From: Sulfurimonas paralvinellae | GTDB lineage: Bacteria; Campylobacterota; Campylobacteria; Campylobacterales; Sulfurimonadaceae | Assembly (NCBI RefSeq): GCF_014905135.1 | Contig: NZ_CP041406.1 | Location: 682,001-746,000 of the forward strand | Direction of reading: 5' to 3' | Length of the DNA stretch: 64,000 nt | Shown: positions 55,665-61,496 of the stretch, one piece after another | How positions within the stretch are numbered: position 1 is the first letter of the stretch | Layout: every line of letters starts with the position of its first letter | Position numbers and translations under genes: made by a program | Notes under the pieces: model-generated | Database searches by the model: none | What the model was told of the DNA's origin: nothing | What the model saw: the letters and a program-made list of their open reading frames with translations, nothing else

Positions 55665-57251
55665 ATGCAGAAATATACAGTAGTAGTATGTGACCATATT
55701 CATGAAGCGGGTCTAAAAATGCTTCAAGATGACGAAGCTATCAATTTTGTTATGGCAGCTGACGTTGATAAAAAAGAGCTTGTTGAGAAGATTATTCCAA
55801 CTGCGGATGTTGCCATTACAAGAAGTTCGACTGATGTTGACTCATTCTTTTTGGAACACGCAGATAATATGAAAGCGATCGTTCGTGCCGGTGTCGGTGT
55901 TGACAATGTTGATATCCCGGGATGTTCTAAAAAAGGTATCATTGTTATGAACGTACCGACTGCAAATACTATTGCAGCAGTTGAACTGACTATGACACAT
56001 ATGCTTAGCTGTATGAGAATGTTTCCATACTCTCATGACCATTTGAAAAATCAAAGAATCTGGAAACGTGAAAAATGGTACGGTTATGAGCTTAAAGGCA
56101 AGAAGCTCGGTGTTATCGGTTTTGGTAACATCGGTAGTCGTGTCGCTAAACGTGCAAAAGCTTTTGAGATGGACATTGTCGCTTACGATCCATACATTGA
56201 TCCTGCAAAAGTAACTGACTTAGATATGACATACACGAAAAACTTCGATGATATCTTAGCTTGTGATGTGATCACTATCCATACACCGAAAAATAAAGAG
56301 ACTATCGGTATTATTGGTGAAGAAGAGATCGCTAAAATGAAAGACGGTGTTGTTCTTGTAAACTGTGCGAGGGGTGACCTTTACAATGAAGATGCGCTTT
56401 ATAACGGTTTGAAAAGCGGTAAGATCCGTTTTGCAGGTATTGATGTATTTGGTAAAGAGCCGGCGATTAACAATAAACTGCTTGACCTTGACAATATAGT
56501 TGTCTCTCCACACTTAGGTGCAAATACTTACGAGTCTCAGTACAACATCGGTACGCAGGCAGCAGGGAATGCTATTGAAGCTGCTAAGGGTATTTCATAT
56601 CCAAATGCACTTAACTTGCCTATTGATGAGAGCAAAATACCTGAATTTGTTAAGCCGTTCTTAGAGATGGGACAAAAGATCGGATTTATGGCTTCACAGA
56701 TCAACAAGTCTAAAATCGTTTCAATCAGAGTAAAAGGTCAGGGTGAAATAGGAAACTATGTCGATTCTCTTGCTACTTTTGTAACTGTTGGAGCAATGAG
56801 CCACTCTTCTGAGACTATTAACTATGTAAATGCTGATTTCGTAGCAAAAGAGAAAGGGGTGGACGTTGAGCCTGTCAATCTTGGAGACTCTGCTGTTTAT
56901 AAGAACCTTATCACTGTAAAACTTACAACAAATGAGGGAACAACAACTATCTCTGCTACGATTTTTGATGATGGTGTACAGCGTATCGTCTCTATTGACG
57001 GTTTTGACAATGAAGTGGCGATTAAAGGTGATATGATCCTCTTTAAAAATTCTGATGTTCCTGGTGTTATCGGGAGTGTAGGAACTATTCTTTCTAATAA
57101 TAGTGTAAATATTTCAGACTTTTCATTAGCGCGTAATGAGAACAAAGAAGCACTCGCTGTTATCTTGGTTGACAATGTAGTAAGTGATAAAACACTTGAA
57201 GAACTCGCTTCACTTGAAGCATGTAAAAGTGTAAGTTACGCACGTCTGTAA
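55665..57251 (+). CDS. serA: D-3-phosphoglycerate dehydrogenase (long form)
   Basis: A protein of 528 aa. NAD-binding GVIGFGNIGSRVAKRAKAFEM, catalytic Arg/Glu/His in VLVNCARGDLYNE, FGKEPAINNKLL and NIVVSPHLGANTYESQ. An intervening domain (about 320-450) and a C-terminal ACT domain (PGVIGSVGTILSNNSVNIS) follow, the arrangement of long SerA proteins with serine feedback. First step of serine synthesis. ATG follows the previous stop with no gap. Confidence 0.96.
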   Translation: MQKYTVVVCDHIHEAGLKMLQDDEAINFVMAADVDKKELVEKIIPTADVAITRSSTDVDSFFLEHADNMKAIVRAGVGVDNVDIPGCSKKGIIVMNVPTANTIAAVELTMTHMLSCMRMFPYSHDHLKNQRIWKREKWYGYELKGKKLGVIGFGNIGSRVAKRAKAFEMDIVAYDPYIDPAKVTDLDMTYTKNFDDILACDVITIHTPKNKETIGIIGEEEIAKMKDGVVLVNCARGDLYNEDALYNGLKSGKIRFAGIDVFGKEPAINNKLLDLDNIVVSPHLGANTYESQYNIGTQAAGNAIEAAKGISYPNALNLPIDESKIPEFVKPFLEMGQKIGFMASQINKSKIVSIRVKGQGEIGNYVDSLATFVTVGAMSHSSETINYVNADFVAKEKGVDVEPVNLGDSAVYKNLITVKLTTNEGTTTISATIFDDGVQRIVSIDGFDNEVAIKGDMILFKNSDVPGVIGSVGTILSNNSVNISDFSLARNENKEALAVILVDNVVSDKTLEELASLEACKSVSYARL

Positions 57252-57438: not shown

Positions 57439-59154
57439 TTAAACCGGATCTTCTACAGAAACGGCTTTTTTCTCATGAAAGTGAAAATGTTTTTCCAAAT
57501 CTACTGTATACAGAAGTACAGGAACAACGATAAGTGAAGCGATGACCGCTGCTACTGTACCAAATATAAGTGCGACACCAAGACCGCCAAAGACAGGATC
57601 GGCCGCAAGAAGTGTTGAAGCCAAAATAATAGCAACAGCAGTTAAGAAGATAGGTTTTGCACGTGTTGCTGATGCATAGGCAATAGCTTCTGCTTTATGC
57701 ATCCCTTTTTCATCCATCAATGATTTCGTAAAATCAATAAGCAGCAGAGAGTTCCGTGAACTAATTCCTATAAGGGCGATAAAACCGATCAGCGATGTTG
57801 CTGTGAGGAAGAAAGTATCCGGTGTAAAGAGATCCATGATCCAGTGCCCGACAATGACGCCGATGATAGAGAGAAATGAACCAAGCAGGATGATACCGCT
57901 GAGTGTATAACTTTTATAGTAGATAACCATTAACAAGAAGATAAGGATAAGGGCAGCAATGAAAGCGCCTCCCAAGTCTCTAAAAGTATCCATGGTAACT
58001 TTCATCTCACCATCCCAGATAAGATCATAGATTTCACCTGTCTTTTTATCTGTAAGTCGTAGATTGAAAAGACCTGTTTTTTCAACATTGTAATCATCTG
58101 TAAATGTATCTATGATCGTTTTTCTTGCATCAAGAAGAGGATAGACTTGAGAGACCATATCTGTCTCTGCAAGTACATTTGTCATCTGATGGAGATCTTT
58201 GGACATAATTAACGGGTTTGATTTTTTTGGAGTGACTTTTACAAGTTCCGTAACTGGTACCATCATGCCCATTTTATTCATCAGTTTCAAAGAAGCAAGT
58301 TTAGCCTTTACAGATGCAAGATCTTTTTTTGTAAATCTTTTTGAATCCTGTGAAAGTGAAAGAAAAATAGGAATCTGGTCATTGTATTTGTCTGAGTTTT
58401 TAACGGCAATATTCATCCCTTCAAAAGCAAGATAGAGGATGTCGTTGAGTTGTTTGACACTTAAACCTGATCTTGCGATCTTGGTGCTGTCTACAGTGAC
58501 TTCAAAAGTGTCATAGATATCATCTTCCATTGTATCTATATCTACAAGTCCTTTGGTATGTTTGAAAACATCTTCAACGCGATTTGCCACTTTTCTAATG
58601 CCTTTGGCGTGTTTTCCATATACTTCCATAACGATTGCTGAAAGTGTCGGTGGTCCTGCCGGTGGTTCGACAAAAGAGATATCTGTACCAGGGTAAAGCT
58701 TCTCACACGATCCTTGAATAACAGGACGCATGCGTTGTACCATCATGTATGAAGGTTCTTCTCTCTCATGCTTTTTTGTAATATTGACAACGATCTCTGC
58801 AACATTTTCAGCATTTTTAAACTGGCTTCCTTTGATGAGACCTGCAAAATCAAGTGGAGAACCCATTCCCAAAAATACTTCGGTATCGAGTGCCTCTTTT
58901 TCTTTTACAACATAAGAGCTCACGCAGTCCGTTACTCTTTTTGTCTCCTCTATAGAGCTTCCTGTAGGCAGATTGACATAGATATTGAATGTATCATTGT
59001 TCTTTCCCGGAAGCATTTTTACTTTAACGATCTCTGTAGGTGCAATCATCAATACAGAAAGGATAAAAGCGGCTAGTGTTCCCAAGAGAATAAATCGTCT
59101 TTGAGCAGCGCTTTGAATACCTGCGAATACAAGCTTTTCAAATTTTTTAAACAT
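57439..59154 (-). CDS. RND efflux pump, C-terminal half (TM7-TM12) as a separate protein
   Basis: A protein of 571 aa matching the second half of an AcrB-type pump: TM7 at about residues 22-42, porter domain with PPAGPPTLSAIVMEVYGKHA, then five helices (about 410-560). In TM10 the AcrB Lys940 position reads GISSRNSLLLIDF, Arg in place of Lys. The ATG overlaps the stop of the N-terminal half (TAATG) and has its own strong AAAGGAG seven nt upstream, within the last codons of that gene. Together the two halves give 1099 aa, normal for a full pump. Substrate unknown. Confidence 0.88.
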   Translation of the reverse strand: MFKKFEKLVFAGIQSAAQRRFILLGTLAAFILSVLMIAPTEIVKVKMLPGKNNDTFNIYVNLPTGSSIEETKRVTDCVSSYVVKEKEALDTEVFLGMGSPLDFAGLIKGSQFKNAENVAEIVVNITKKHEREEPSYMMVQRMRPVIQGSCEKLYPGTDISFVEPPAGPPTLSAIVMEVYGKHAKGIRKVANRVEDVFKHTKGLVDIDTMEDDIYDTFEVTVDSTKIARSGLSVKQLNDILYLAFEGMNIAVKNSDKYNDQIPIFLSLSQDSKRFTKKDLASVKAKLASLKLMNKMGMMVPVTELVKVTPKKSNPLIMSKDLHQMTNVLAETDMVSQVYPLLDARKTIIDTFTDDYNVEKTGLFNLRLTDKKTGEIYDLIWDGEMKVTMDTFRDLGGAFIAALILIFLLMVIYYKSYTLSGIILLGSFLSIIGVIVGHWIMDLFTPDTFFLTATSLIGFIALIGISSRNSLLLIDFTKSLMDEKGMHKAEAIAYASATRAKPIFLTAVAIILASTLLAADPVFGGLGVALIFGTVAAVIASLIVVPVLLYTVDLEKHFHFHEKKAVSVEDPV

Positions 59155-60740
59155 TAATGTTCTCCTTTGCTGTGGTCAGGGCGTTTTAGAATTCTAACGG
59201 CCAGATACGGTGTAAAGATGTAGGCAACAAACAGTGACGCAATAAGTGCGACAGGTACATTGGCAGGAATGGGTTTCATAAACTGTCCCATCATGCCGCC
59301 GACAAATGCCATAGGTACCATAGTCATAATGATGGCAAGTGTCGCAATATTTGTCGGTGCGCCAATTTCATCGGTAGCTTTTATCATGATCTCATCATCA
59401 CTTTCATGTGCAGACTCGATTGAGTGGTAGTGTCTGTGGATATTTTCTATAACGATAATAGCCGCATCGACGAGAAGTCCCAGTGAGAGTAAGAATGCAA
59501 AAAGAGTGATACGGTTAATTGTCTGTCCTGTCAAATAGGCAATAAAAAGTGTAATGGCAAGAATGGCAGGAACCGTAAAGGTTACTATGAGCGATTCTCT
59601 CCATCCAAGTACGAAGATAAGAAGTATAGCGATAATAATGATAGATAAAATCAGGTGAAATACAAGCTCGTTAACGGCTTCATTGGCACGTTCACCGTCA
59701 TTTCTTGTGATGACATAACTAATACCGTTTTTAGAGAGATCTTCTTTATACTTTTCTAACTCTTTCTTTACTTCTTCGGCGATAATAACCGCATTTGTTC
59801 CCTGGAGTTTTGAAACAGTAAGTGTTACCTGGTCTTTAAACGGAGAAAATTTCCCGTCCTCTTTTACACTGACAAGTGCCGATTTAAAGTTTTGAATATC
59901 ATAAGAGTTTTCGACTTTTGCAACCTGGTGCAGATAGATAGGAGAACCCATGTACTGAGCTACAATGATATTACCGACATCTTTTGCATCTTCGATGGCA
60001 TTTTTTACACCTACCATAACGATTTTATTGTCTTTTGTTCTGTTTTTCACTGCAGGGACATTATATGCCAGAGATTGAACAGCCTGCATTATTTGACCCA
60101 TAGAGAGGTTATAACCGGAGAGCTTGTTGATGTCCACTTCGACATTGAACTGGTGTTTATGCCCGCCTTTTATCTCTGTGACGGCGACATTGTTCAATCC
60201 GTTGATATGGTGTTGAATGCTCTTGACCTTGTCATAAAGTTCCGTTTTACTCATACGTGGATTGTTGGAATAGAATGCAACGGAGACAATAGGAATGTCA
60301 ACGTCAATATCGAGCGGTTTGATGATCGGATTCATCGCACCTTTTGGAAACATATCGGAGTTTTGCATGATCTTGTCATAGACCTTGAGGTTGGAATCCT
60401 CTTTCTTCTCACCGATATAAAATGCTACATTGACAATACCGACATTGTCCATTGCCATGCCGTAGATATGCTCAACACCTTTTACCTCTTTGAGTTTTCT
60501 CTCGAGTGGTTTTACAATAATCTTTTCAACCTCTTTTGCACTCGAACCAGGGAGTGCAACGATAACGGTTGATCCTGAGACTACCATTTGCGGGTTCTCC
60601 TCACGCGGCATAACCATAAGAGCTATATAGCCGATAACAAGTAAAAAGATACCGAGAACTGATGTCAAAGGATTACGTAAAAATCCTTTGGCAAGTTTTC
60701 CTGCTGCATCTTTTGGTTCATAGGGTTTATGATGATTCAT
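59154..60740 (-). CDS. RND efflux pump, N-terminal half (TM1-TM6) as a separate protein
   Basis: A protein of 528 aa: cytoplasmic start, TM1 (about 28-47), porter and docking region with PREENPQMVVSGSTVIVALP, then TM2-TM6 (about 350-520). TM4 has LGLLVDAAIIVIENIHRHYH: the first Asp of the AcrB DD pair is kept, the second is Ala, as in CusA-type pumps. It ends in the cytoplasmic linker (RPDHSKGEH) just before where TM7 would begin. So the break lies at a domain border, not at random. Part of the order tolC-like, MFP, RND-N, RND-C. Confidence 0.88.
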   Translation of the reverse strand: MNHHKPYEPKDAAGKLAKGFLRNPLTSVLGIFLLVIGYIALMVMPREENPQMVVSGSTVIVALPGSSAKEVEKIIVKPLERKLKEVKGVEHIYGMAMDNVGIVNVAFYIGEKKEDSNLKVYDKIMQNSDMFPKGAMNPIIKPLDIDVDIPIVSVAFYSNNPRMSKTELYDKVKSIQHHINGLNNVAVTEIKGGHKHQFNVEVDINKLSGYNLSMGQIMQAVQSLAYNVPAVKNRTKDNKIVMVGVKNAIEDAKDVGNIIVAQYMGSPIYLHQVAKVENSYDIQNFKSALVSVKEDGKFSPFKDQVTLTVSKLQGTNAVIIAEEVKKELEKYKEDLSKNGISYVITRNDGERANEAVNELVFHLILSIIIIAILLIFVLGWRESLIVTFTVPAILAITLFIAYLTGQTINRITLFAFLLSLGLLVDAAIIVIENIHRHYHSIESAHESDDEIMIKATDEIGAPTNIATLAIIMTMVPMAFVGGMMGQFMKPIPANVPVALIASLFVAYIFTPYLAVRILKRPDHSKGEH

Positions 60741-60749
60741 AGCAGTTCC

Positions 60750-61496
60750 TTAGTTGATAGTGATGGTAGCATACATACCAGGATAGATTGATTTACTATG
60801 TGTTTTAAAAGAGACCTTTATCTTAAATGTATGTGTCATCGGGTTTGAGTTTGGAATGATCGCCGTGATTTTTCCTATCTCTTTAATGCCAAGTGACGGA
60901 ATCTCTACAATGACTTTTTTGCCATGATGAATACGCGGCATATTGCTTTCTGCAATTTCAGCAGATATTTTAAGATTGCTCAGATCTGAGAGTATGATAG
61001 CAGGCATACCAGGCATTGCCATCTCGCCGACTTTAATATTTTTAGCGACGACGACACCGTCATTCGGCGCTTTGATATTGAGGTATTTGTATTGGTTCTC
61101 TACTTCTTGAAGTCTCGCTTTTGCAATACTTATCATATCCTGCAGGTTCTTTGCCGCAAGTTCTAGATTTTCAACTTCATATTTTGATACCATATCTTTT
61201 TCAAGAAGTCTTTTGTATCTCTCAAGATTAAGTTTTACATTTGTATATTGATTTTCATACATTTGGAGTGAAAGTTCCGCTTGGCGTTTTGCCGAGTCGA
61301 TCTCACGCGAATCGATCGTATATAAGATTTGTCCGCGTTTTACTTTTTCACCTTCGCTGACATTTACATTTGTTACAAAGCCCATAAAACGGCTTGTGAT
61401 CATTTTTTGGTTATCTGAGATAACACTTCCTGAAAGTGTCAGTGCCTCCGCCATCAGTGAAGCACCAAGTGCCAGTATCAGTAGTAGTTTCTTCAT
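60750..61496 (-). CDS. RND periplasmic adaptor (membrane fusion protein)
   Basis: A protein of 248 aa with a signal peptide (residues 1-16, ending SLMAEA). Short for the family: barrel-sandwich (SRFMGFVTNVNVSEGEKVKRG), helical hairpin (about 62-120), return strand NIKAPNDGVVVAKNIKVGEMA, and a beta-barrel end (YPGMYATITIN). Bridges the RND pump and the TolC-like duct. It lies 9 nt before the RND-N gene and abuts the tolC-like gene with no gap. Confidence 0.9.
   Translation of the reverse strand: MKKLLLILALGASLMAEALTLSGSVISDNQKMITSRFMGFVTNVNVSEGEKVKRGQILYTIDSREIDSAKRQAELSLQMYENQYTNVKLNLERYKRLLEKDMVSKYEVENLELAAKNLQDMISIAKARLQEVENQYKYLNIKAPNDGVVVAKNIKVGEMAMPGMPAIILSDLSNLKISAEIAESNMPRIHHGKKVIVEIPSLGIKEIGKITAIIPNSNPMTHTFKIKVSFKTHSKSIYPGMYATITIN

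Follow-up and report, generated by a model that had tools for sequence, protein, structure and literature searches.

The permease of an AcrB-type RND pump is usually taken to be one chain of roughly 1000 residues. SecD and SecF, which are accessory to protein translocation, likewise belong to the RND superfamily and are two neighbouring chains, also in the genome studied here, but they are neither a tripartite efflux pump nor an AcrB-type permease cut in its linker. The RND pumps MdtBC and MuxBC likewise have two permease genes; according to PMC7015380, these are two homologous permeases that arose by duplication, in contrast to the two halves of one permease described below. For a split AcrB-type permease, no description was found in the open-licence literature searched. 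One RND survey (PMC10872679) dropped matches shorter than 852 aa and required more than 80% alignment, so that split permeases could hardly have entered it.

The window, that is, the whole stretch of DNA analysed here, comprises 64,000 nucleotides of the Sulfurimonas paralvinellae genome (contig NZ_CP041406.1). It contains the genes of a channel, an adaptor and two permease chains (denoted N-chain and C-chain), which are co-directional on the minus strand. Very probably, they encode a tripartite RND system whose permease was split once, anciently, in the TM6-TM7 linker and whose two chains pair as N3C3. The permease ORFs share one base, located in the TAATG, and their frames are one base apart; the AAAGGAG ends seven nucleotides before the second ATG. 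The earlier note had described a pump of two ORFs, separated at the TM6-TM7 linker and provided with its own AAAGGAG and TAATG, and this arrangement is seen in the ORFs, the Pfam matches and the predicted folds. The pump operon is adjoined by serA (phosphoglycerate dehydrogenase; window 55665-57251), a homologue of which also occurs at 35 of the loci L041-L208, representing an old gene neighbourhood.

Features of the split-pump locus, in window coordinates
Feature	Coordinates	Strand	Basis or remark
TolC-type outer-membrane channel, 455 aa	61497..62864	-	OEP match; first gene of putative operon
Periplasmic adaptor, 248 aa, without membrane-proximal domain	60750..61496	-	RND_mfp profile match, alignment
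Permease N-chain, 528 aa: TM1, periplasmic porter/docking half, TM2-6, short basic C-terminal tail	59154..60740	-	ACR_tran 7-497, AlphaFold
Permease C-chain, 571 aa: amphipathic helix, TM7, periplasmic half, TM8-12	57439..59154	-	ACR_tran 528-1020, AlphaFold
Junction: AAAGGAG motif, 7-nt spacer, TAATG stop/start overlap	59152..59171	-	arrangement kept in 75 split loci and 50 named loci

Both chains score above the curated cut-off (28 bits) of the Pfam profile ACR_tran (PF00873): the N-chain matches positions 7-497 of 1021 with 267.5 bits and the C-chain positions 528-1020 with 135.6 bits. The two chains were folded separately by AlphaFold, using 40-row alignments. The N-chain model (mean pLDDT of 76.3) aligns to residues 1 to about 500-510 of AcrB-fold chains (Z about 22); the C-chain model (mean pLDDT of 75.5), which begins with the helix preceding TM7, aligns to residues about 520-1036 (Z about 24). 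These alignments put the cut in the cytoplasmic TM6-TM7 linker, where the N-chain stops at about residue 510 of AcrB and the C-chain takes over at about 520. Summed over both models, the chains comprise 12 TM helices and two large periplasmic loops. One polypeptide per protomer, as in AcrB-type permeases, is not what the window and 74 other loci encode, each of them containing two ORFs.

From the same phylum, 80 loci were fetched; 75 of the resulting 81 loci, the window included, are split at the same place and six are fused. Matches to the N-chain at E ≤ 1e-60 were obtained in 48 of 60 relatives. When 397 genomes of the phylum were searched, the N-chain matched in 163, with ORFs of 509-565 aa in all rows among the matches listed; the C part, for which a fused relative served as query, matched in 162. 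Among the C-part matches listed, 11 rows are 1077-1181 aa long (nine in family f16, one in G040 and one in G417) and the remainder 546-676 aa. A named set, consisting of the best 80 matches of one named-genome scan and four plasmid regions, yielded 84 loci, namely 50 split, 32 fused and two cut by contig ends; it partly overlaps with the phylum set (L076 and L201 are identical). All but one of the named split loci bear Campylobacterota names (49 of 50; Sulfurimonas, Sulfurovum, Sulfuricurvum, Nitratifractor, Nitratiruptor, Hydrogenimonas, Sulfurospirillum, Arcobacter and less precisely named members), the remaining one, L179, being titled only 'bacterium'. The 32 named fused loci are assigned to Pseudomonadota (or Proteobacteria, including Mariprofundus) or Nitrospirota, none to Campylobacterota. 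A search of 398 genomes from the phylum of Thiomonas (L145) gave 108 with a match at E ≤ 1e-140. The ORFs among the matches listed measure at least 713 aa except for three of 481-531 aa; since all three sit at contig ends, no split was seen in that phylum among these matches.

Within the Sulfurimonas genome itself, PF00873 detects six fused permeases, the window pair, a second split pair (L007) and SecD. L007 (G000:C1:1028041-1031232, minus strand) encodes chains of 524 and 594 aa, with the ATG directly following the TAA, and its TM4 reads VDDA. As judged from the coordinates of its two match pieces, L109 is a single open frame of 604 aa that contains an insert. In the public annotation of Sulfurovum mangrovi and Sulfuricurvum kujiense, each half is named an efflux RND transporter permease subunit; annotators should avoid marking such gene pairs as frameshifted.

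The score of the split permease stays below the HAE-1 cut-off (TIGR00915, 940.35 bits) for both the N-chain (187.4 bits) and the C-chain (92.6 bits), as do the scores of the four fused relatives analysed (293.8-313.3 bits). The CusA/CzcA cut-off (TIGR00914, 701.45 bits) is likewise missed by the N-chain (136.1 bits), the C-chain (63.7 bits) and the four fused relatives (270.4-287.7 bits). Adaptor and TolC-type channel genes stand beside the permease in the window, and both accompany it at 53 of the 74 split loci fetched and at 42 of 50 named ones. For 20 of the 124 split rows, including the own-genome paralogue L007, the search directly upstream gave no adaptor; some split permeases therefore lie outside a full operon. 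The split pump probably works in the manner of an AcrB-type tripartite pump and is not classed as HAE-1. Organic compounds might tentatively be regarded as the likeliest substrate class.

The proton-relay residues at positions 407, 408, 940 and 971 (AcrB numbering) were compared across an alignment of 124 split rows and 35 fused ones, of which six belong to the phylum and 29 to other phyla. The equivalent of Asp407 is present in all aligned rows. Position 408 is occupied by Ala in 101, Asp in 22 and Ser in one of the split rows and is mixed in the fused rows. At position 940, Arg is found in each of the 155 rows in which a residue is present (120 split, six fused of the phylum and 29 fused of other phyla). 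Position 971, an Arg in AcrB, is Lys in 113 of 120 split rows; the fused rows all have Arg or Thr, and none has Lys. Arg940 thus appears as a family-wide mark, with Lys971 accompanying the split clade. An unusual relay had been proposed on the basis of the window, where TM4 reads VDAA and TM10 has Arg in place of Lys940. Both features are present, but the Arg is not unusual because it is family-wide, fused genes included, and the single TM4 Asp, although common, is not universal.

In the split pump, the relay would span the two chains, with the Asp407 equivalent in the N-chain and the Arg940, Lys971 and Thr978 equivalents in the C-chain. As predicted from the topology, each chain has six TM helices and both ends in the cytoplasm and should therefore be insertable into the membrane by itself. 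By analogy with the AcrB fold, one N-chain and one C-chain would form a 12-TM protomer and three protomers an N3C3 trimer, which would contain two chains per protomer and six in total, with N-chains presumably pairing only with C-chains. That the chains instead represent separate half-size pumps, or assemble with another stoichiometry, in the manner of the separate SecD and SecF chains, is decidedly improbable. The neighbouring secD and secF genes of the same genome demonstrate that two-chain members of the superfamily exist, but the relay residues are divided between the chains, each chain corresponds to one half of the AcrB fold, and the N and C genes are adjacent in 75 of 75 split loci and co-evolve (r = 0.92 for N-half versus C-half identities between split pairs; 3000 of the possible pairs). 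Fission of an N3C3 pump would also create exchangeable modules: genomes with two pairs, such as the window and L007, could mix N- and C-chains into hybrid pumps, with the shortened adaptor docking differently on account of the two-chain permease, an outcome that we consider unlikely.

Across the 75 split loci, the distance between N stop and C start never leaves the range of -17 to +9 nt (-1 in 26, -4 in 23, 0 in five, others scattered). Among the 50 named split loci, the distance is -1 in 22, -4 in 17 and 0 in five, with one locus each at -38, -14, -11, -8, 1 and 2. A Shine-Dalgarno-like motif of at least 4 nt precedes 73 of 75 C starts versus 510 of 5842 internal ATGs, and one of at least 6 nt precedes 21 of 75 versus 14 of 5842. 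As the score used to pick the C starts gives credit for an ATG and for a motif of this kind, the motif count is somewhat inflated. The N-chains often end in a His- and Lys-rich tail (for example L065, L063 and L104), with up to nine His in the last 20 residues, the codons of which also hold the Shine-Dalgarno motif of the next gene.

Motif and spacing are consistent with translational coupling, by which one mRNA would yield both chains: a ribosome stopping on the N-chain would meet the Shine-Dalgarno motif in the last codons of its gene and begin the C-chain at most a few bases away. Programmed ribosomal frameshifting or stop readthrough, giving one fused product or both forms, is a very improbable explanation. 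The frames do differ by one step in most loci (TAATG or ATGA overlap), and a few loci are in frame across one stop codon. However, the frame relation varies (the 50 named split loci fall into three phases of 40, 5 and 5), the distance extends up to +9 nt, and a constant slippery site was not seen among the junctions inspected, the constant feature being a start codon with a Shine-Dalgarno-like motif. Because the phase varies, programmed frameshifting was rejected as a general explanation; a minor fused product may exist beside the two coupled chains.

The origin of the split was analysed by two quick tree searches without bootstrap, from both of which L109 was omitted. In the first, the 74 split rows included group together as a single clade (SH-aLRT 99), to which the six fused phylum rows are sister; its outgroup consisted of six own-genome RNDs, whose branches are very long and elicited a warning from the tool. 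In the second, rooted with 29 fused rows of other phyla, 45 split rows form one clade (SH-aLRT 100) with a long stem (1.37), the fused phylum rows are again sister, and one change suffices in all. The fused genes of other phyla fall outside the split clade and its fused Campylobacterota sister, and no refusion was seen in either tree. Since the split genes form one clade, with the fused genes of the phylum as sister and those of other phyla outside, the trees point to a single ancient gene fission, maintained under purifying selection: the comparison of window and L041 gives, for either chain, a pN of about 0.09 and a pS of about 0.7, pS being near saturation. The permease gene would have been cut in the cytoplasmic TM6-TM7 linker in the ancestor of a large Campylobacterota clade and have remained split since.

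The recurrence of the split across the phylum speaks for an ancient design that has been retained and against an error in the sequence; the earlier note had argued against a random frameshift. The cut is at the same place in 75 of 81 phylum loci and in 50 of 84 named loci, and comparison with orthologues excluded that the sister genomes are all fused. An error in sequencing or assembly, or a frameshift of recent date turning an ordinary fused pump into a pseudogene, would fit the one-base shift between the window frames and the fused sister group in the same phylum, but it can be discounted almost completely given that these split loci show all three reading-frame relations and differing junction sequences, that both chains are under purifying selection and that the same genome contains the split paralogue L007.

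The adaptor of the ancient split pump is short. In the window, its RND_mfp match covers profile positions 6-245 of 322. Adaptors upstream of split permeases measure 232-273 aa at 102 of 103 loci, the remaining one (91 aa) being probably cut by the contig end; those of the six fused phylum loci measure 327-349 aa, and those of the named fused loci 319-486 aa in 27 of 28 cases and 161 aa in one (contig cuts possible). In the alignment of chosen adaptors, the split-clade members end after the beta-barrel and are also devoid of the segment preceding the first lipoyl half. The membrane-proximal domain is thus missing from the split-clade adaptors aligned and kept in those of the fused relatives; Pfam gave no separate match marking this domain, so the library does not discriminate. 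Membrane-proximal domains are said to accompany RND transporters without exception (PMC4446572) and are listed for all RND adaptors (PMC8277102); the window adaptor departs from both descriptions.

Upstream of a fused RND permease in the same genome (L002:791-5679) lies a 235-aa adaptor without a membrane-proximal domain, and a second adaptor-like protein of 371 aa is located downstream. A short adaptor unique to split pumps was accordingly rejected. The adaptor rule therefore breaks more widely, and the relation to the fission is maybe only that of a shared stem. A link between the fission and the loss of the adaptor domain, which occupy one stem in the tree, is conceivable. An inserted permease domain replacing the lost adaptor domain was also rejected, with just three short gains of 5-8 columns being found.

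Taken together, these data suggest that two-chain RND pumps are in use in a large clade within a single phylum. A natural split at a defined site raises the question of how two pseudo-symmetric halves find each other, and a relay across a subunit border could be mixed and titrated. Permeases of the AcrB/CmeB/MdtB type (ACR_tran; PDB 9lyq, 5lq3 and 8ffk) share with the split pump the fold of each half and the order of the domains, but they are single chains of about 1030-1060 aa instead of two chains, and R and K are swapped at the Lys940 and Arg971 positions. The nearest relatives are fused RND permeases of 1080-1180 aa from Pseudomonadota, Nitrospirota and a minor Campylobacterota clade (for example L145 of Thiomonas bhubaneswarensis, L193 of Thiomicrorhabdus marina, and L105), with mean identities of 40-45% for the N half and 32-38% for the C half. 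They share the Arg at position 940 and the adaptor/TolC neighbourhood with the split pumps, and differ from them by their one chain, by an adaptor that has the membrane-proximal domain, and by Arg or Thr at position 971.
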